Part shown: positions 18,433 to 28,745 of the stretch, in pieces
Layout: each line of letters opens with the position of its first letter
Numbering within the stretch: position 1 is the first letter of the stretch
Origin: Wenyingzhuangia aestuarii
GTDB taxonomy: Bacteria; Bacteroidota; Bacteroidia; Flavobacteriales; Flavobacteriaceae
DNA length: 64,000 bases
Direction of reading: 5' to 3'
Assembly: GCF_011927765.1 (NCBI RefSeq)
Contig: NZ_JAATJG010000003.1
Coordinates: 62,001 to 126,000, forward strand
Position numbers and translations under genes: made by a program
Notes under the pieces: generated by a model
Told to the model about the DNA's origin: nothing
Databases searched by the model: none
The model's input: the letters and a program-made list of their open reading frames with translations, nothing else

Positions 18433-19422
18433 ATGAAGTTTCTTAAATACAGCTTAATCGGAATTTTTATCTTAGCAAGCAACATTAATTCAACTGCTCA
18501 AAACTTGAGTAATTGTTCTTGGCACACAATAGAAACCACAAACCAACCGGTACAAAGACACGAAGCTGCTTTTATAGAAGCCAATCATCAATTTTATTTA
18601 CTGGGAGGAAGAAGAATTCAGCCCGTTTCTATTTTTAATCCCGAAAACAATTCATGGAACAAAGGAGTTAAACCACCTATAGAATTACATCATTTTGAAG
18701 GAATGTCTTATCAAAACAATATTTATGTTGTTGGCGGATTTACAGGAAAATATCCTCACGAAACTCCACTAACAAATGCATATATCTATCACACTAAAAA
18801 AGATTATTGGACTAAGGGTTTTGAAATCCCTAAAGACAGAAGAAGAGGTTCTGCAATGGCTAAAATATACAAAGACAAATTATATTTGATTTGCGGAATT
18901 ACAGATGGCCACTGGAATGGACATGTAAATTGGTTTGATGAATACAATTTTAAAACAAAAACATGGACCAAATTACCCAATGCACCAAGAGCAAGAGATC
19001 ATGCTGCATCGGTAATTATAAATAATAAACTTTACCTAATTGGAGGAAGACGAAGTTCTGGAATTACAAAACAGGTATTTAACATTACCATTCCAGAGGT
19101 AGATGTTTTTGATTTTAAAACTCAAAAATGGTCTACATTAACACAACCTATACCTACACAAAGGGCCGGTTGTATGGCTGTGGCTTTTCAGGATAAAATT
19201 ATATTTGCAGGTGGAGAAAGTATACATCAAAAACTAGCACATAATGAAGTAGAATGCTACGATACATTAACAGAAACTTGGACAACATTAGCTCCTTTAC
19301 GTACAGGAAGACATGGCTCACAATTAATTGTATACAAAAACAAAATCTACACAGCCTCAGGAAGTGGAAATAGAGGTGGGAGTCCAGAACTAAAAACAAT
19401 AGAAGTTTTTAAACTTAAATAA
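18433..19422 (+). CDS. Secreted Kelch-repeat beta-propeller protein
   Basis: The 329-residue protein has a signal peptide (about 1-22; LIGIFILASNINSTAQ) and about six Kelch repeats, each with a hydrophobic strand ending in a Gly pair: FYLLGGRR, IYVVGGFTG, LYLICGITDG, LYLIGGRRSS, IIFAGGES and a last IYTASGSG. It should fold as a periplasmic or secreted beta-propeller. The sequence resembles NanM-like propellers in general form, but I see no specific catalytic signature. It starts 11 bp after radA and its stop overlaps the end of the convergent AraC gene by 8 bp. A link to the neighbouring iron island is not shown. Confidence 0.82.
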   Translation: MKFLKYSLIGIFILASNINSTAQNLSNCSWHTIETTNQPVQRHEAAFIEANHQFYLLGGRRIQPVSIFNPENNSWNKGVKPPIELHHFEGMSYQNNIYVVGGFTGKYPHETPLTNAYIYHTKKDYWTKGFEIPKDRRRGSAMAKIYKDKLYLICGITDGHWNGHVNWFDEYNFKTKTWTKLPNAPRARDHAASVIINNKLYLIGGRRSSGITKQVFNITIPEVDVFDFKTQKWSTLTQPIPTQRAGCMAVAFQDKIIFAGGESIHQKLAHNEVECYDTLTETWTTLAPLRTGRHGSQLIVYKNKIYTASGSGNRGGSPELKTIEVFKLK

Positions 19423-20452
19423 AAAACACTTCAAAATCACTCAAACAAATCATATACAAAATTTGAGAAGTATGCTTTTTTAACTGACTAGGCAAGTAAC
19501 CTAACATTTTTTTAAAAGCAACTGTAAAATGTTGAGGATTTTTATACCCTACTTCATAAGAAGCTTGGGCAATAGTATATTTTTCTTTCTGAATTAACTC
19601 TTTTGCCTTTTCTATTCTTAAAGATGTTATATATTTAAAAATAGTTGTCCCATATAATTGTTTAAAACTCTTTTTTAATTTAGAAGTATTCATCCCTGCC
19701 AATAAAGATAACTCTGGAATAGTTAGCTCCTTTTTTAAGTTGAGTCTTATGTGTTTTTCAACTTCTTTTAAATTTACTTTATCCAACTCATCTACCTCAT
19801 CGTCTTCAACAACCTCTATTGCATTAATGTTTAATGAAATTAATAACAGTTCAGTAATTTTAGCTTCTAAAAAAGCTTTTTTCATTACTCCTCTAAAGCT
19901 ACAATTCACAATATCGTTTACAACGGTAACCAGTTGCTCATTCATTAAAACACCTCCTTTAAAAAAAGGATAGGGTTCCTTCTTTAGTTTTGCATTTTTT
20001 AATTTTTGAGAAGTTCCTGTAAAACAATAACCCATTATATTTTGCAACAATGCCTCTGTAAAAAATATTTCTATAGAATTTTGATGTAGTTGATGAAAAG
20101 AGCATTTTGCTTTAGACTCCGGTATATAAAACAAATTATACATCCCTTTTAAAACGTCTACAACACTTTTTTCTTTGTTTTTAAAATTACAAATCCAATT
20201 TCCATCCAACTGAAAATGTAATTTAAACAAAGGAAAACTATTAGTTGTAGATAGTTTTACAGCACCTGTATGCTTTATATCTATAAACAAAATATATATT
20301 TTATTCAGCTGTATGTCTTTAACACAGCCTACTACACCTTCCTTATCAATCACCCATTCTTTCTCCTCTAATTTTAAACTAGTTAAATCTTTATTAAATT
20401 TTTTAACCAACTCACCAGTTTTAAAAATTGAACTTTTTAAACAGATTTCCAT
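19415..20452 (-). CDS. AraC-family transcriptional regulator, likely of the adjacent iron/siderophore uptake genes
   Basis: The 345-residue protein has a C-terminal AraC/XylS double helix-turn-helix (about 230-330): LTIPELSLLAGMNTSKLKKSFKQLYG, then a second HTH with IAQASYEVGYKNPQHFTVAFKKMLGYLPSQ. The N-terminal about 220 residues form an effector-binding domain without a clear cupin signature; this layout is like PchR/YbtA-type siderophore regulators. It is divergent from a TonB-dependent receptor across 116 bp. That gap holds two direct TTGCGTTAT repeats and a palindromic double promoter. Control of the receptor operon is inferred from position. Confidence 0.85.
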   Translation of the reverse strand: MEICLKSSIFKTGELVKKFNKDLTSLKLEEKEWVIDKEGVVGCVKDIQLNKIYILFIDIKHTGAVKLSTTNSFPLFKLHFQLDGNWICNFKNKEKSVVDVLKGMYNLFYIPESKAKCSFHQLHQNSIEIFFTEALLQNIMGYCFTGTSQKLKNAKLKKEPYPFFKGGVLMNEQLVTVVNDIVNCSFRGVMKKAFLEAKITELLLISLNINAIEVVEDDEVDELDKVNLKEVEKHIRLNLKKELTIPELSLLAGMNTSKLKKSFKQLYGTTIFKYITSLRIEKAKELIQKEKYTIAQASYEVGYKNPQHFTVAFKKMLGYLPSQLKKHTSQILYMICLSDFEVFFI

Positions 20453-20568: not shown

Positions 20569-23019
20569 ATGAAAAAAATCCTATTCTTTATTCTTTTCGT
20601 TAGTTGTGTGGCTATCGCACAAAGAAAACATCATAAGCACCATGGTAAACACCAAATACTGGTAGGTACCATTGCAAACAATAACGGAGAGCCTTTAATG
20701 GGAGCTACTATTTTAGTAGACGATAACAAATATGCAACTATAGCAAATGATAAGGGTGAATATTTTATTCATAACATATCAGAAGGAAAACACATTGTAC
20801 AAGCATCTTATTTAGGTTTTTCTCCAGAAAAAAAAGAAATTTTTGTTAGTAAAGACCCAAAATCACAAAAAATAAATTGTCATTTTTCTTTAAAAGAGAG
20901 TTCAGAATCTTTGCAAAAAGTAGAATTATCTGCAAAATCTCAAAAAACAGAAATTGAAACTAAAGGTTTTGCTGTAAATGTAGTCGAAACTAAAGAAGCA
21001 AGTCTTAGAAACGTACAAACTAACGAGTTATTAAACACAACCGTAGGTGTTAAAATTCGTCAAAACGGAGGTTTAGGTTCAAATGTAGAATATTCACTGA
21101 ACGGATTGTCTGGAAACTCTGTTCGTATTTTTATTGATGGTATTCCAATTTCTATGTATGGATCTTCTTTTAGTCTAAACAGCATTCCTCCTTCTATGAT
21201 TGAAAACATTGAAATTTACAAGGGAGTTGTACCAGGTCACTTGGCCGATGATGCTTTAGGAGGAGCTATTAATATTGTCATGAAAAAAGGAGCTAAAAGC
21301 AATCTTAATGCATCTATCTCTTATGGATCTTTTAACACTTTTCAATCAAGTGTTAATGGTCTGTATCGATTTGATAAATCTGGTTTCACAATAAAAGCAT
21401 CAGCCTTTTATAACTATTCGGCAAATGATTATAAAGTTTGGGGAAGAGGTGTAGTAGACATTGCTCCTAACGGAAGAACTACTGAAATTACTGCTACAAT
21501 GTTTAACAATGCATATGAATCCGTAGGAGGAGTAGCGCAAGTTGGTTTTACAGATGTAAAATGGGCTGATCAATTTTTAGTAGGATTTACAGGTTCATAT
21601 GATTATAAAGAAATTCCAAATGGGGCATTCATGTCCACACTCCCCTACAAAGGAAGATTTATGGAATCCGATTCTAAACTTGCTACCCTAACCTATTTAA
21701 AAAAAGATCTATTTACCAAAGGATTAAATGTAAACATCAATGGTTTGTATGGTAAAAGAAACAGAGTAGTAAACGATACAGTTCCCTGGATTTATACCTG
21801 GAAGGGAGAAAGGTTAAAAGACTTAAACAATAACGACATACAATACAATTGGGGATCGCAACAAGAAAAAAGTGAATATGGTCCCATTCTAAATTACATA
21901 GACAGGAATGTATCATCTATAAGAACAGGTGTTTCTTATGAAATTAACAAACAACACAAAGTTTTATTAAACCATGTATACAGTGGAATTGACAGAGAAG
22001 ATCATGATGAATACTCATCTGCATTAGCCAATACATTTACAGAAACAAAAGATTTATATAAAAATATTTACTCTTTAAGCTATGAACTAAATGCTTTTGA
22101 CGAAAAATTAAAACTTAATCTTTTTGGAAAGCATTATCACCAAAAAGTTTTAAACACAAATCCTGTTTTTAACGAAAAAAAAACAGAAGTTATAGAAGAA
22201 ATTTACAAAAGCAAAAAAAAATATAATGGTTATGGGTTTGCAACTTCTTATGTATTGTTCCCTAACATCACCCTAATTACATCAGCAGAAAAGGCTGTAA
22301 GACTACCTGATGAAACCGAAATATTTGGAAACACCGGAGACAATGTAGATGGAAATTTAACCCTTAAACCAGAAATTAGTTACAACTACAATTTAGGGGT
22401 ACGATTTGGTAAGCTCCATATAAAAAAACATGCACTTACACTTTCTACCAATTTGTTCTCTAGAAATATTCAAGACCTAATTAGTCTTCCTATTAATAGT
22501 GAGCAATTAAATCAAGATGATGAAGTTATCAGCTATGTAAACTTAGAAAAATCTAGTACATCAAAAGGAATAGATTTAGATGTAAACTATAGTTATAATA
22601 ATAATTTTGGAATCAACTTTAACTTATCTCGCTTAAATTTAACAACCACTGTTAACAACCTAGAAGTTGATGTACCCAACACCCCTAAATTCACAATGAA
22701 TGCAGGTACGCGTTATTCCATTAAAAACTTTATTCAAAAAAACTCTCGTTTAAACCTATTCTATAGCATCTATTTTACTGATGAGTTTTCCTATATACAA
22801 TCTCAAGAAAGTGGTGTTAGAGATGATACAAACTTTTCAGATGTTCCACTACAATTAGTTCAAGACCTAGGCTTGAGCTATGCGTTCCCTAAAGAACGTT
22901 TTGTGTTAAGTTTTGATGCCAAAAATATATTCAACAAAACAGCATATGACAATTTATCTATACAAAAACCAGGTAGAAGCTTTTACTTAAAATTAAATTA
23001 CACAATCAATAAATTCTAA
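20569..23019 (+). CDS. TonB-dependent receptor, XusA-like, with His-rich N-terminus
   Basis: The 816-residue protein has a signal peptide (cleavage near Ala17), then HHKHHGKH at residues 21-28, a carboxypeptidase-regulatory-like beta-sandwich (about 30-110), a TonB plug (about 125-240; NSVRIFIDGIPISMYG and IEIYKGVVPGHLADDALGGAINIVMKK), and a 22-strand barrel ending in a C-terminal aromatic-rich strand (SFYLKLNYTINKF). It should bind and import a ligand across the outer membrane with TonB energy. The DUF4374 lipoprotein and PepSY reductase downstream match the XusABC xenosiderophore system of Bacteroides, so a ferric siderophore is the best guess. No SusD partner is present, which argues against a glycan. 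The extra His cluster suggests metal binding. Confidence 0.88.
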   Translation: MKKILFFILFVSCVAIAQRKHHKHHGKHQILVGTIANNNGEPLMGATILVDDNKYATIANDKGEYFIHNISEGKHIVQASYLGFSPEKKEIFVSKDPKSQKINCHFSLKESSESLQKVELSAKSQKTEIETKGFAVNVVETKEASLRNVQTNELLNTTVGVKIRQNGGLGSNVEYSLNGLSGNSVRIFIDGIPISMYGSSFSLNSIPPSMIENIEIYKGVVPGHLADDALGGAINIVMKKGAKSNLNASISYGSFNTFQSSVNGLYRFDKSGFTIKASAFYNYSANDYKVWGRGVVDIAPNGRTTEITATMFNNAYESVGGVAQVGFTDVKWADQFLVGFTGSYDYKEIPNGAFMSTLPYKGRFMESDSKLATLTYLKKDLFTKGLNVNINGLYGKRNRVVNDTVPWIYTWKGERLKDLNNNDIQYNWGSQQEKSEYGPILNYIDRNVSSIRTGVSYEINKQHKVLLNHVYSGIDREDHDEYSSALANTFTETKDLYKNIYSLSYELNAFDEKLKLNLFGKHYHQKVLNTNPVFNEKKTEVIEEIYKSKKKYNGYGFATSYVLFPNITLITSAEKAVRLPDETEIFGNTGDNVDGNLTLKPEISYNYNLGVRFGKLHIKKHALTLSTNLFSRNIQDLISLPINSEQLNQDDEVISYVNLEKSSTSKGIDLDVNYSYNNNFGINFNLSRLNLTTTVNNLEVDVPNTPKFTMNAGTRYSIKNFIQKNSRLNLFYSIYFTDEFSYIQSQESGVRDDTNFSDVPLQLVQDLGLSYAFPKERFVLSFDAKNIFNKTAYDNLSIQKPGRSFYLKLNYTINKF

Positions 23020-23030
23020 ATACAATCAAT

Positions 23031-24398
23031 ATGAAAAATCAGTTTTTTAACCTAAAAACAATAACACTAGCCTTAAGTTCTTTATTACTTATTGTAGGTT
23101 GTAGTGAAGATGATAAAGTAGATGGAGCTAGTACTCCTATTGAAACAAAAGATGCATCAGACAGATGGATTACTGTAGCGGGTGCTAAAATGGGTACCAA
23201 TCCTGGAGATGGTAATGGTGGAACACTTGTATACACTGTAAGTAGCCAAAATGCTAAAGACCCAAATAAAGTAATTGCTCCTTTTGACAATGGATATGTA
23301 GTACCTTCTAACAGGACGGCAAGATTACAAGCTTCTGAAGATGGAAATACATTATTTAATATTACTTACGCAGGTGATACTGGAGGAAGTTTCTTTAAAT
23401 ACACAGTAGGTGGAGGACAAGAATTTAACCAAATTGGATTGCCAGTTACAGTTGCTCAATATGTAGGTACAGCTCCAAGATGGATTAAATTATTTGACGG
23501 AGATAATACAGGTGCAGCTGTATACGTATCTACAAACGATATAATAGATGATAAAGGTACAGACGATGTAACGGATGATGTATATCAAAAAACAGAGTCT
23601 AAAATTGCTGTAGTAACCATTAATTTAGCAGACCAAGCTATTAATGAATTTAAAGAACATACTATATCTTTAAATGATATAGATGCTGCCAAAGGATATT
23701 ATATTTCTAGAATAGATATGCCTGTTTTAAATGCTAGTGGAGATAAATTATATATTGGTGCACAGGTAAGGAAAAAAGACCCTACAACCTTAGAAGGAGA
23801 TAGCGATTACGAAATTTTAGGTTCTAAAACTATTGTATTAGACTACCCGTCATTAGACAATCCATCTATTATTTCTTCTACTATAGGACATGGAAATACA
23901 AACGGATACCGTAGTATTAATGCTTTTGAGTATAACGGAGATGTGTATCAAGCAAACCAAAGTGATCCAGAAGGTTCTCATATCTTAAAAATTGGAACAA
24001 ACAATCAATACGATGATACATTTGATTTTAATTTAGATGATGCTTTAGGAGTTACAGGTGCTTATGTATTAGCATGGAGACCAGCAGCTAACGGAAAAGC
24101 AGTCCTAGCTTACCGTCACGAAGGTTCGGAAGAAGGTGCTGCTGGTGCACAAGGATTCTTTGCTTTAGTAGATTTAAACGCTAAAACAGCTACAAAAATT
24201 AATAAAATTCCTTACAGCGCAGATTTCTACTTATTCCAATACCAAGGTTTTGCAGTATATGGAAATGAAATTTATGTAACTGAAGCTCCTGTTGGTCAAG
24301 ATGGAAACATCTATGTAATAGACACAGAAACTGGAGTAGTTACTAAAGGTGCTCAATTAAAAAATATAGAAGGAAGTCACTTTATCGGTACTTTCTAA
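23031..24398 (+). CDS. DUF4374 surface lipoprotein, XusB-like
   Basis: The 455-residue protein has lipobox IVGC (Cys24) followed by SEDD, an acidic stretch that fits the Bacteroidota lipoprotein export signal for surface display. The remainder is a repetitive beta-propeller-like domain (repeated AxDGNxLxNITYAGD, DKLYIGAQVR, GNEIYVTEAPVG patterns) that I assign to DUF4374. In Bacteroides thetaiotaomicron, XusB is a DUF4374 lipoprotein that binds ferric enterobactin next to receptor XusA. The gene follows the receptor by 11 bp, the same order. A role in capturing ferric siderophore at the surface is inferred from this match. Confidence 0.8.
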   Translation: MKNQFFNLKTITLALSSLLLIVGCSEDDKVDGASTPIETKDASDRWITVAGAKMGTNPGDGNGGTLVYTVSSQNAKDPNKVIAPFDNGYVVPSNRTARLQASEDGNTLFNITYAGDTGGSFFKYTVGGGQEFNQIGLPVTVAQYVGTAPRWIKLFDGDNTGAAVYVSTNDIIDDKGTDDVTDDVYQKTESKIAVVTINLADQAINEFKEHTISLNDIDAAKGYYISRIDMPVLNASGDKLYIGAQVRKKDPTTLEGDSDYEILGSKTIVLDYPSLDNPSIISSTIGHGNTNGYRSINAFEYNGDVYQANQSDPEGSHILKIGTNNQYDDTFDFNLDDALGVTGAYVLAWRPAANGKAVLAYRHEGSEEGAAGAQGFFALVDLNAKTATKINKIPYSADFYLFQYQGFAVYGNEIYVTEAPVGQDGNIYVIDTETGVVTKGAQLKNIEGSHFIGTF

Positions 24399-24476: not shown

Positions 24477-25976
24477 ATGAAAAAAATAATCACGCTTTTA
24501 TTGCTTGCACTTCCGTTGTTAACTTTTGCCCAAAGACCGCAGCAGGAGGATAGTAATATTTTTCACAACTATGAATTTTGGAAGAAGCAGCCAAGTCTTT
24601 CTCTAATAAAAGAAAAAATTAAAGAAGGTCACAGTGCTGTAAAACAAAATAGAGCTGCTTTTGATGCAACCAGCTATGCTATTATGACCAAAAACCCTAC
24701 AGCTACAATAGAATATTTATTGTCTTTACCAGGTAACAATGTAAACAAGTCTACACACGATAACAGAAGCTACTTAATGTGGTCTGGATATGCTGGAGAT
24801 ATTGAGGTAATGAAATTGTTACTTAGCAAAGGAGCAGATACCAAAGTAGTAGGAAGCCACGGTTTTAACTGGTTTACATTTACCGTAAATACTGGTCACG
24901 AAAACACAGCAATTTACGACTTAATGGCTGCTAATGGAGTTGATTTAAAAGAAACCAACCGAGCTGGTGCCAATGCTATTTTATTATTAGCTGCACATAG
25001 TAAAGACGGTAAAATTCTAAATTACTTTGAGCAAAAAGGATTAGACATTAAAGCAACAGACAAACAAGGAAACAACTTGTTATTTTATGCTGCACAACGT
25101 GGAAATTTAGAATTGATAAAGAAATACATCGCTAAAGGATTTGACTACAAAAAAACGAATACGGAAGGAGAAAACATTGTGCTTTTTGCAAGTCATGGAG
25201 CAAGAGGTTACAGCAATTCTCTAGAAGTCTATCAGTATTTTGATTCTTTAGGGTTAGATTTTACTTTGGCAAATAAAAAAGGACAAAACGCATTGCATTA
25301 CATTGCTAGAGGTACTAAAGATGCAGCTGTACTAGCTTATTTCATTAAAAAAGGAGCAAATCCACATCAAAAAGACGAAAATGGAAACACTCCATTTTTA
25401 AATGCAGTACAAGGAAATAATGAAATGGTGGTAAAACAATTATTGCCTAATGTAAAAGACATCAACCACAAAAACAACGAAGGTTTTACAGCTATTACCC
25501 TTGCTACACAACGTGTAAACGTAACTCTTTTTACTACTTTAAAAGAAAAGGGAGCAAATGTAAATGTTGTAGATGCTGATGGAAACAATTTATTCTATCA
25601 CCTATTTAATGCTTACAACAGAAGAAGTGCTAAAGGGTTTGATGCTTTTGCTACTGCTTTAGAAAACGCAAATGTTTCTTCTAAAAACGCTTCTAAAAAC
25701 ACAACCTTGTTACACGTTGCTATAGAAAAAGGAGAAAGAAAACTAATTCAGAAAGCCATGGAATTAGGGATCGGTATCAACCAAAAAAATAGTGATGGTT
25801 TAACACCTTTACACATTGCAGCCATGAAAGCAAAGGATGTAAAATTGTTACAAATGTTACTACACAAAGGAGCTGATAAAGCTATAAAAACAGATTTTGA
25901 CGAAAGTGTATACGATTTGGCAAAAGAAAACGAATTGCTAAACAAGTCAGACATCAACTTTTTAAAACAATCTTAA
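24477..25976 (+). CDS. Exported ankyrin-repeat protein in the iron island
   Basis: The 499-residue protein has a signal peptide (about 1-18; TLLLLALPLLTFAQ) and about ten ankyrin repeats from about residue 60 to the end. Examples are IEVMKLLLSKGADTKVVG, LELIKKYIAKGFDY, AVLAYFIKKGANPHQKDENGNTPFLNAV and VKLLQMLLHKGADKAIKT. It should act in the periplasm as a protein-binding scaffold. It lies 78 bp after the DUF4374 gene and 11 bp before the DUF2271 gene on the same strand. The minimal Xus system of Bacteroides as I know it does not include an ankyrin protein. What it binds is unknown; the receptor plug, the DUF2271 protein and the PepSY periplasmic loop are the nearest candidates. Confidence 0.85.
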   Translation: MKKIITLLLLALPLLTFAQRPQQEDSNIFHNYEFWKKQPSLSLIKEKIKEGHSAVKQNRAAFDATSYAIMTKNPTATIEYLLSLPGNNVNKSTHDNRSYLMWSGYAGDIEVMKLLLSKGADTKVVGSHGFNWFTFTVNTGHENTAIYDLMAANGVDLKETNRAGANAILLLAAHSKDGKILNYFEQKGLDIKATDKQGNNLLFYAAQRGNLELIKKYIAKGFDYKKTNTEGENIVLFASHGARGYSNSLEVYQYFDSLGLDFTLANKKGQNALHYIARGTKDAAVLAYFIKKGANPHQKDENGNTPFLNAVQGNNEMVVKQLLPNVKDINHKNNEGFTAITLATQRVNVTLFTTLKEKGANVNVVDADGNNLFYHLFNAYNRRSAKGFDAFATALENANVSSKNASKNTTLLHVAIEKGERKLIQKAMELGIGINQKNSDGLTPLHIAAMKAKDVKLLQMLLHKGADKAIKTDFDESVYDLAKENELLNKSDINFLKQS

Positions 25977-25987
25977 TTTAAATTCTC

Positions 25988-26479
25988 ATGAAAATTTACA
26001 ACTATTTATTTGTAGTTATTTGCCTATCCTTAATGGCATTTACTACCTTAAAAAATGCAGAACCTACACAAAAATACAAGTGCATGGTTCAGTTAAAAAA
26101 TTATGAAGGAGAAGGTGCTTATGTAATTGTATCTGTAGTAGATAAAGATGACAATTATGTAAAGACATTACGTATTTTAGGAGATGATGAAAAATGGTAC
26201 CCAGATTTACCAAAATGGTGGAACTTTTTTGAAAAAGCAAAAGAACCAGATACCGATGCTATTACAGGAGCTACCATTGCAGGTGGAGAACGTTCTTTAT
26301 TTGTATTTAACTTAAATCCAAACGATTTAAACAACGGTAACAAACTTAGATTTGAAACTGCTGTAGAACATCAAGAACATTATTTAAAGGATCTAGAAGT
26401 TTCTTTAAATACAGAAAATTTAAAAAACAAATACGAAGGAACAGGATACATTCGTTACGTTAGAATTTTACCAAACTAA
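25988..26479 (+). CDS. DUF2271 periplasmic protein with flavinylation-like motif
   Basis: The 163-residue protein has a signal peptide or N-terminal anchor (about 1-20) and the DUF2271 pattern: KYKCMVQLKNYEGEGAYVIV, then WYPDLPKWWNFF, then DAITGATIAGG. Residues 90-96 (DAITGAT) fit the Dxx[ST]GA[ST] sequence to which ApbE attaches FMN; Thr96 would be the modified residue. DUF2271 proteins are reported to belong to extracytosolic flavin electron-transfer systems together with PepSY-type membrane proteins, and here the next gene is exactly such a reductase, 7 bp downstream. No apbE lies in the window, so the transferase would have to be elsewhere in the genome. FMN attachment is inferred, not shown. 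Confidence 0.8.
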   Translation: MKIYNYLFVVICLSLMAFTTLKNAEPTQKYKCMVQLKNYEGEGAYVIVSVVDKDDNYVKTLRILGDDEKWYPDLPKWWNFFEKAKEPDTDAITGATIAGGERSLFVFNLNPNDLNNGNKLRFETAVEHQEHYLKDLEVSLNTENLKNKYEGTGYIRYVRILPN

Positions 26480-26486
26480 TTAGCAC

Positions 26487-28679
26487 ATGCTTCACAAAAT
26501 TTGGAGATACAGTCATTTTTACCTGACTGTATCTTCTTCTTTATTTTTACTTTTGGCTGCCGTTACGGGGGCTTTTTTGGCTTTTAAACCCATACAAGAC
26601 AAACTACAACCTTTTTACATTCATCAGGCTGAAGATGTTATTTTGTCCACATTAGTAGACACGCTAACTCACAAATACGATGAAGTTTTAGATGTAGAAA
26701 TAGACAACAACTATTTTGTAAAAGCTAGCGTTTTTGGTACAGAGGCAGAAGGTCAATTTTACATCAATCCTTTTGATGGAAATAAATTAGCAGATTTACC
26801 AAAGTCCAATGCTTTTTTTGAATCTATCACCAATTTTCATAGATCCTTATTTTTAAAAACACCTGGTAGAATTTTTGTAGGAATTACTTCTTTTCTACTT
26901 TTTTTAATAGCCATTACAGGTTTGTTATTGGCCATTAAAAGACAAGGTGGTTTTATTCAACTTTGCTCCAAAATTGTAAACGATAAATCTATACAATACA
27001 ATCACGTAGCTCTAGGTAGATTGTTACTAATTCCTATTGTAATTGTTGCTTTTACAGGTACGTATTTGTCTATGGAAAAACTGTCTTTACTTCCTAAAAC
27101 CAAGGCTTCTGTAAACACATACAATCCTAATAACACTCACAACATTCCTTTTTCTGAGTTTGCTATTTTTAAAAACACCAAGATTAAAGAAATTACCAAA
27201 TTAGAATTTCCCTTTTCTACAGATGAGGAAGATTATTTTACACTCAGTTTAAAAGATAGAGAACTTAAAATCCATCAAAAAACAGGAGAAATAGTTAAAG
27301 AAACTCGTTATCCTTTTGTTCAAATTCTATCCATCTTAAGTTTTAACTTACACACAGGAACCGGAAGTATTCTTTGGTCTATTGTTTTATTAATAAGCTC
27401 TGTTGGAATTTTGTACTTTATGTATTCTGGAGCCATGATATCTTATTATAGAATCCGATCTAAAACCAAAAATAAATTTACAGCTCAACAGGCAGAATTC
27501 ATCATTTTAGTAGGATCGGAAAACGGAGGCACCAAAAGATTAGGAAAAGTATTACAGCAAGCATTGCTAAAAGCAAACCAAAAAGTATTTGTAGATGATT
27601 TAAATAATTATCAAAACTATCCTCAATTAAAACAATTACTAATTTTAACCTCTACCTACGGACAAGGAGAACCACCAAGTAATGCCAATTTATTTTTAAA
27701 CAAACTACAACAAACTAAAATCAGCACTCCTTTTGAATGTCATGTCATTGGTTTTGGTTCTTTTTCTTATCCTAAGTTTTGCGAATTTGCTAAAGAAATT
27801 CATGCACAAGCCACTATACAACCTAACATTCATGTAACTGAAAAAACTCCGTTGTTAATTCACAATCAGAATTACCAACAGTTTAGAGATTGGACACAAC
27901 AATGGGCAAAATCTAATCATTTAAACCTATCCATTCCACAAGAACTCTCAACCAAAAAACAAAAAGAAATTGCTTTTAAAGTGACGGATAAAATCAACAT
28001 AAAAGATACTTATGACGAAACCTTTACTTTAAGTTTAACTCCTACCAAAAGAAAACGATTTGTAGCTGGTGATTTGCTAAGTATTACACCTCCACAAGAA
28101 AGCACAGAGCGCTTGTATTCCATTGGAACAAATTCTAAAGGTGATATGCTATTAAGCATTAAAAAACACGATTATGGAGTTTGTTCTAACTATTTAAATA
28201 ACTTAAACATAAACGATACGTTAAAAGCGAGCATTCAACAAAACAAAGAATTCCATTTTCCTAAAAAAGCTACTAGTGTTACTTTAATTGCTAACGGAAC
28301 AGGAATTGCTCCTTTCTTAGGAATGATCCATCAAAAAACAAAGGCAAACATTACCTTGTATTGGGGAACTAGAACAAAAACCTCAACAACACTTTACCAT
28401 TCGTTTATAGCAGAAGCCAAACAAAAAGGAACACTGCATCAATTTAACTTGGCATTTTCTAAAGAAGTACATCCGTTTAATTATGTACAAGATTTGTTAG
28501 TAAAAGATGAAATCACCATTGCCCATAAACTTAAAAATGGAGATGTATTTATGCTCTGTGGTTCTATCGCTATGAGAAATGCTGTCTTTATTCAGTTAGA
28601 AAAAATCTGCATCAAACACCAATTAAACTCTTTTGATATTTACAAAAACAACGGACAAATTTTAACCGATTGTTATTAA
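26487..28679 (+). CDS. PepSY transmembrane-flavodoxin-ferredoxin reductase fusion (XusC-like ferric reductase candidate)
   Basis: The 730-residue protein is a fusion. Residues about 1-325 are a PepSY_TM region with four membrane helices (about 15-33, 128-150, 177-195, 293-315) and His118 (NFHRSLF), His173 (YNHVALG) and His289 (FNLHTG) as possible haem ligands. Residues about 336-475 are a flavodoxin domain (LVGSENGGTKRLGK, STYGQGEPPSNA). The C-terminal part is a CysJ-type FAD/NADPH module (ERLYSIG, GTGIAPFLGM, MLCGS). Electrons would flow from cytosolic NAD(P)H through FAD and FMN into the membrane and out to the periplasm. With the neighbouring DUF2271 protein this looks like a reductive step that frees iron from an imported siderophore. 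The last step is inference. Confidence 0.87.
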   Translation: MLHKIWRYSHFYLTVSSSLFLLLAAVTGAFLAFKPIQDKLQPFYIHQAEDVILSTLVDTLTHKYDEVLDVEIDNNYFVKASVFGTEAEGQFYINPFDGNKLADLPKSNAFFESITNFHRSLFLKTPGRIFVGITSFLLFLIAITGLLLAIKRQGGFIQLCSKIVNDKSIQYNHVALGRLLLIPIVIVAFTGTYLSMEKLSLLPKTKASVNTYNPNNTHNIPFSEFAIFKNTKIKEITKLEFPFSTDEEDYFTLSLKDRELKIHQKTGEIVKETRYPFVQILSILSFNLHTGTGSILWSIVLLISSVGILYFMYSGAMISYYRIRSKTKNKFTAQQAEFIILVGSENGGTKRLGKVLQQALLKANQKVFVDDLNNYQNYPQLKQLLILTSTYGQGEPPSNANLFLNKLQQTKISTPFECHVIGFGSFSYPKFCEFAKEIHAQATIQPNIHVTEKTPLLIHNQNYQQFRDWTQQWAKSNHLNLSIPQELSTKKQKEIAFKVTDKINIKDTYDETFTLSLTPTKRKRFVAGDLLSITPPQESTERLYSIGTNSKGDMLLSIKKHDYGVCSNYLNNLNINDTLKASIQQNKEFHFPKKATSVTLIANGTGIAPFLGMIHQKTKANITLYWGTRTKTSTTLYHSFIAEAKQKGTLHQFNLAFSKEVHPFNYVQDLLVKDEITIAHKLKNGDVFMLCGSIAMRNAVFIQLEKICIKHQLNSFDIYKNNGQILTDCY

Positions 28680-28690
28680 TTTTAAAACCA

Positions 28691-28721
28691 AAAAAGCTCA
28701 ACAGAATCTGTTGAGCTTTTT
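28691..28721. terminator. Bidirectional terminator between the iron island and gpmI
   Basis: A 14-bp stem (28691-28704 with 28708-28721; core AGCTCAACAG) closes an AAT loop. It has A and T runs on its two sides, so it can terminate both the plus-strand reductase gene and the minus-strand gpmI. Confidence 0.85.
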
Positions 28722-28745
28722 TACTAAAATCTATTTTTTAATTCC

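Follow-up and report, generated by a model that had tools for sequence, protein, structure and literature searches.

A Xus-like operon with a predicted flavinylated DUF2271 carrier and a PepSY-diflavin reductase: a probable ferric-siderophore uptake system with its own periplasmic reductase

Results

The window analysed here is a stretch of 64,000 nucleotides; among named organisms, Wenyingzhuangia and other marine Flavobacteriaceae are its nearest relatives. Within it lies a run of five genes on the + strand, with a divergent AraC-type regulator taken from the list of open reading frames (19415..20452, - strand) standing 5' of the run. In order, the five genes encode a TonB-dependent outer membrane receptor in the XusA-like position (20569..23019; Plug domain, E 2.2e-14), a lipoprotein of 455 aa (23031..24398), a secreted ankyrin-repeat protein of 499 aa with an N-terminal signal peptide (24477..25976; Pfam Ank_2, E 3.8e-37), a periplasmic DUF2271 protein of 163 aa with a signal peptide (25988..26479), and a transmembrane reductase of 730 aa that joins PepSY, flavodoxin, FAD and NAD(P) domains (26487..28679). 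The run is closed by an inverted repeat, AAAAAAGCTCAACAG-AATC-TGTTGAGCTTTTTT, with runs of A and T on its flanks (28690..28722, assigned to neither strand), which was read from the sequence and is a probable terminator of the operon. The initial annotation had placed the DUF2271 gene, its motif and the 7-bp gap to the reductase at these positions, and a check against the open reading frames and the sequence found all of them correct.

The DUF2271 match (PF10029, E 1.5e-36) spans residues 28-156 and scores 125.5 bits against a curated cut-off of 27.3. Residues 90-96 read DAITGAT (26255..26275, + strand), which fits the ApbE flavinylation pattern D..[ST]GA[ST] just as had been claimed, and FMN would be expected on Thr96, making the protein a predicted ApbE-flavinylated electron carrier. 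The motif holds up well among orthologues: in the unbiased set of 21 homologues found in relatives with the PF10029 profile (the window included), 20 carry it and the sole exception reads DAIVGET. Seventy-one of 80 further DUF2271 loci have the strict motif as well, a share that is biased upward because the pattern partly used to retrieve them itself contained the motif. S or T stands at the acceptor position in 81/81 sequences (the 80 loci and the window), and most have GAT; judged by this conservation, DAITGAT is in the DUF2271 protein beyond chance. A covalent FMN at the equivalent position has experimental precedent, since the main text of a 2021 survey reports that a DUF2271 protein of Amantichitinum ursilacus is flavinylated by its own ApbE and loses the flavin when the equivalent Thr is changed (PMC8238504). 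A single-sequence search of the structure database found no solved relative of the DUF2271 protein. Its mature form has only one cysteine, Cys32 (26081-26083), within a YKC motif, and this residue is invariant in 81/81 homologues; it might form a disulfide with a partner or provide a thiol close to the FMN.

The remaining nine of the 80 loci read DAITGET (three loci), DAISGET, DGIAGAT (two loci), NAITGAT, SAITGAT and SAVTGAS. All nine keep the ankyrin and reductase genes, so that either the motif is looser than the strict pattern, or flavinylation is dispensable at some loci. Forms with GET (DAITGET, DAISGET or DAIVGET) occur in separate genomes (L089, L105, L108, L116 and L041), and the change is always Ala to Glu; the four of these genomes that were checked, L089, L105, L108 and L116, carry apbE.

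The proposal of a flavinylated carrier had been made together with a call to search the full genome for apbE, and one copy is present (L002:7546-8568, E 3.8e-81). It is a solitary gene about 122 kb from the operon, adjoining neither DUF2271 nor Nqr, and its product is a probable lipoprotein. The genome has one FMN_bind protein, which sits within an apparent Nqr operon on a different contig from apbE. Because apbE stands alone and the Nqr operon lies on another contig, a single ApbE is presumably shared by Nqr and the genome's two DUF2271 proteins (the second is described below). Nqr probably already accounts for the presence of apbE, and the presence of ApbE by itself is insufficient to make DUF2271 its substrate. 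All 20 other genomes checked have apbE as well, the nine motif-variant genomes among them, and the idea that loss of the motif tracks loss of apbE was rejected on that count.

These data bear on a reading in which reduction of the substrate falls to the reductase by itself, as has been proposed for XusC and FoxB, while DUF2271 is an unflavinylated periplasmic chaperone that binds the ferric chelate or iron. The homologues with a non-canonical motif (DAITGET, DGIAGAT) that nevertheless keep the gene pair would fit such a chaperone, as would the Bacteroides Xus systems, which are described without DUF2271 (PMC13142918). Against it stand the unbroken S/T at the acceptor position, the prevalence of GAT, the presence of apbE even alongside variant motifs, and the flavinylation by experiment at the same site, and we regard the chaperone as quite improbable.

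The gene that follows, which begins 7 bp beyond the stop codon of DUF2271, had been described as encoding a membrane protein with flavodoxin and FAD/NAD domains, and Pfam agrees, with matches to PepSY_TM (7.4e-29), Flavodoxin_1 (4.6e-12), NAD_binding_1 (2.3e-8) and FAD_binding_6 (2.5e-4). From hydropathy, the PepSY_TM region (26511..27440, + strand) is predicted to form four transmembrane helices, with hydropathy peaks at residues 15-33, 129-147, 174-192 and 294-312. It is followed by a diflavin module (27504..28586, + strand), predicted to be cytosolic, in which Pfam and structure searches place a flavodoxin domain at residues 340-441, an FAD domain at 499-580 and an NAD(P) domain at 600-700. 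The NCBIfam CysJ model matches at E 3.2e-34, although its 118 bits fall far under the CysJ equivalog cut-off of 668. Matches in the PDB are to the reductase modules of cytochrome P450 reductase (CPR), CysJ and nitric oxide synthase (NOS), with NOS at the top. The module thus has the same flavodoxin and FAD/NAD(P) parts in the same order as CysJ and CPR, unlike which it is fused to a PepSY membrane domain.

For the membrane part, a fold search with the whole reductase was uninformative, being swamped by CPR and NOS chains. A profile of residues 1-330 searched against the PDB matched 7abw only, with the N-terminal half aligned (E 5.5e-6), and by this profile match the membrane part is homologous to that solved PepSY reductase. 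The 7abw structure holds two haems, each with two conserved histidines (PMC11334425). The initial annotation had offered His118, His173 and His289 as candidate haem ligands; these three are present and invariant, but the list was one short, as His10 is equally invariant. The four codons lie on the + strand at 26514-26516 (His10), 26838-26840 (His118), 27003-27005 (His173) and 27351-27353 (His289), and the four residues were invariant in 16/16, 38/38 and 73/73 homologues in successive alignments, in which no other histidine was. Four such residues are enough for two predicted bis-His haems, as would be expected of a FoxB-type PepSY siderophore reductase. The positive-inside pattern suggests that helices 1 and 3 carry His10 and His173 at their cytosolic ends, whereas helices 2 and 4 carry His118 and His289 at their periplasmic ends; paired by this topology, they would place one haem near each face of the membrane. 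The 7abw chain, of 382 residues, is matched in the membrane part only, and the reductase described here has, in addition, an NAD(P)H donor module of its own.

Ser658 and Tyr666-Val667-Gln668 are conserved in homologues of the reductase, and we take them to resemble the NADPH-binding end of the CysJ/CPR family, a resemblance that makes NADPH the likely donor. The direction of electron flow is something that sequence cannot give, and the main text of the 2021 survey deems reversal possible in principle (PMC8238504), so that DUF2271 could conceivably oxidise a periplasmic compound and pass the electrons to the cytosol. A CysJ/CPR-type module normally spends NADPH, however, reduction is what an iron-uptake context needs, and the same text cites the PepSY-like homologue VciB as a reported iron reductase (PMC8238504); taken together, these points make inward flow very improbable indeed.

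A PepSY-CysJ gene lies directly 3' of DUF2271 in 74 of the 79 loci where this could be tested. The five loci with no adjoining PepSY gene, four of them from Capnocytophaga, were dropped as exceptions when a full-length copy was found elsewhere in each genome.

The pairing of DUF2271 with the reductase had been recognised in the initial annotation and stands, but the most constant companion of DUF2271, the ankyrin protein, had been left out of it. The ankyrin gene is directly upstream of DUF2271 in 80/80 loci, 79 of them within 400 bp by automatic count. DUF2271 is found above cut-off in 9 of 148 genomes sampled across the phylum, the present one included (partial PF10029 matches elsewhere in the phylum are under the cut-off and were left out of this count). 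A full-length ankyrin homologue (E < 1e-80) occurs in the same nine genomes, adjacent to DUF2271 in each, and in 0 of the 139 without DUF2271. Adjacency kept across several families is strong linkage, though shared ancestry makes the naive probability too small. Since the ankyrin protein has a signal peptide it should be periplasmic, and its most likely role would be one of docking, that is, holding DUF2271 near its partners. No paper connecting ankyrin to bacterial PepSY proteins turned up in the open-access literature; an RNA-seq study of Tenacibaculum in which ankyrin and siderophores are both mentioned proved unrelated.

The two genes at the head of the run point to a substrate. The lipoprotein has a lipobox cysteine, Cys24, that is invariant in 26 sequences, and its family profile matches XusB of Bacteroides fragilis (9hqe) at E 2.7e-6. 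Its predicted structure, a beta-propeller (pLDDT 87.7), has XusB as its best Foldseek match (E 5.9e-16), and in the VIA fold comparison XusB reached Z 32.3 over 349 residues with an rmsd of 3.0, ahead of Barnesiella XusB (Z 25.6) and the next family (Z 21.9). A single-sequence search of the PDB gave nothing useful, and XusB came to light only when the family profile or the predicted fold was used. Neither the lipoprotein nor three of its homologues matched any Pfam family at E up to 0.01; with no match to DUF4374, we call it a XusB homologue rather than a DUF4374 member. By profile and modelled fold, then, the lipoprotein is a homologue of the siderophore-capturing XusB and a predicted siderophore-binding protein. 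XusB binds ferric siderophores, and the other members of the XusABC system are a TonB receptor and a PepSY protein (PMC13142918), so the homology of the lipoprotein is what makes the operon Xus-like. The TonB receptor matches the model of the myxochelin receptor MxcH at 1.7e-108, yet stays under the cut-off of that model. An imported ferric chelate had been suggested as a plausible electron acceptor, and since the neighbouring genes encode a TonB receptor and a siderophore lipoprotein of the XusB type, it would be the natural one.

An operon apparently equivalent to this one, judging solely from the order and annotation of its genes, has been studied in Riemerella anatipestifer CH-1. There, B739_0173 to B739_0177 are annotated as a TonB receptor, a hypothetical protein, an ankyrin protein, a predicted periplasmic protein and a nitric oxide synthase (PMC5429918). 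Pfam describes DUF2271 as "Predicted periplasmic protein", and our reductase has NOS as its best PDB match; the Riemerella "nitric oxide synthase" is probably the counterpart of this reductase. The five genes rise under iron limitation by log2 3.3, 3.6, 2.4, 3.1 and 1.0, respectively (PMC5429918), and Fur represses B739_0173 and binds its promoter (PMC7976709). A search with the published Riemerella Fur-box gave nothing convincing in the window (up to three mismatches) or upstream of homologous operons.

The triad of ankyrin, DUF2271 and reductase genes is common to two types of locus. At 21 loci it occurs with a TonB receptor and a XusB-like lipoprotein, and in 34 of 80 loci it lies beside DUF6607 (PF20311; for example L028:11063-11965), frequently near HmuY/TonB genes. 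An AraC regulator is found at 15/21 of the XusB-type loci versus 2/34 of the DUF6607-type loci. We found no paper in the open-access literature that joins DUF6607 with iron. The present genome has a locus of the second type at the start of contig C14 (L038:218-5388), where a second DUF2271 protein, also with DAITGAT, is encoded beside DUF6607, a TonB receptor and an HmuY-family protein. FeoB lies about 10 kb into this contig, and the contig ends 217 bp downstream of the locus, so that a following gene is possible. One copy of PepSY-CysJ was found in the genome, and with two DUF2271 proteins to one such reductase, the two carriers may share it.

The triad could therefore be a general periplasmic electron supply with several acceptors (haem iron, free Fe(III) or other oxidised periplasmic compounds), for which a place in the operon brings iron-responsive expression and nothing else. 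Its occurrence next to DUF6607 and HmuY/TonB genes, as well as a single reductase that may serve two carriers, would both suit such a supply. Yet every outer-membrane partner that was identified is an iron or haem uptake gene, and expression of the Riemerella operon rises when iron is limiting; we consider a general supply unlikely, if the least improbable of the alternatives to a dedicated ferric-siderophore system.

Discussion

Our favoured reading, which we hold to be likely, is that these genes form a Xus-like system for taking up ferric siderophores, equipped with a periplasmic reductase of its own that is driven by NADPH. A ferric siderophore would be captured on the cell surface by the XusB-like lipoprotein and carried by the TonB receptor into the periplasm. 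Electrons from cytosolic NADPH would enter the 730-aa reductase at its FAD domain, move on to its FMN (flavodoxin) domain and cross the membrane by two bis-His haems, of which the cytosolic one is probably held by His10/His173 and the periplasmic one by His118/His289, to reach an FMN attached by ApbE to Thr96 of DUF2271. The flavin-bearing DUF2271 protein would in turn reduce the ferric siderophore and so release Fe(II), which could be imported by, for example, FeoB, a protein encoded in the genome. The interpretation in the initial annotation is supported in its checkable parts, with apbE present, the motif conserved, a PepSY-CPR-type reductase and iron-uptake neighbours.

The core of that interpretation was, however, already known. 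The main text of the 2021 survey by Meheust et al. describes NAD-domain fusions in 1077 PepSY-like genes and 231 clusters with a TonB receptor, and proposes iron reduction (PMC8238504), which covers the PepSY-DUF2271 class, NAD fusions and TonB clusters included. The survey defines its PepSY-like flavinylation systems by PF03929 or PF16357 in a flavinylation-associated cluster, and the reductase here matches PF03929 at 7.4e-29. As in those systems, a PepSY membrane protein stands beside a flavinylatable DUF2271; unlike in them, apbE is unlinked, DUF4198 is absent from the operon, and an ankyrin gene adjoins DUF2271. The main text of the survey contains neither ankyrin nor any name in Bacteroid- or Flavobacteri- (PMC8238504).

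In common with XusABC of Bacteroides, the operon combines genes for a TonB receptor, a surface lipoprotein with the XusB fold and an inner-membrane protein of the PepSY kind, but XusABC is described as having three genes, with no DUF2271 or ankyrin, and the present operon encodes these two extra proteins and a PepSY protein that, unlike the one in Bacteroides, is fused to an NADPH-type diflavin module. None of the terms DUF2271, ankyrin and flavin appears in the XusABC paper (PMC13142918). In that work XusC is named as the probable reductase and the inner-membrane iron importer is called unknown (PMC13142918). For the freeing of siderophore iron in Bacteroidota, the operon described here supplies a candidate route that is complete from NADPH to the periplasm.

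Three features seem to be undescribed in the open-access texts searched, of which the survey is represented by its main text: the obligate ankyrin partner, the combination of the module with a system of the XusB type, and the interchange between outer-membrane sets. We tentatively propose, with rather less confidence than we place in the siderophore pathway itself, that flavobacteria and their relatives combine a fixed three-protein electron export module with varied outer-membrane iron sets, and that the ankyrin protein is a dedicated factor docking the carrier to its donor or to the ferric chelate. If this is true, the ankyrin docking factor would be a new component, with a new role, in flavinylation-based electron transfer.

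The genome also encodes a second PepSY_TM protein, of 513 aa, on contig C6 (L047:5471-10801). It is accompanied by a TonB receptor and DUF4198, with no DUF2271, and probably marks a separate siderophore uptake and reduction locus.
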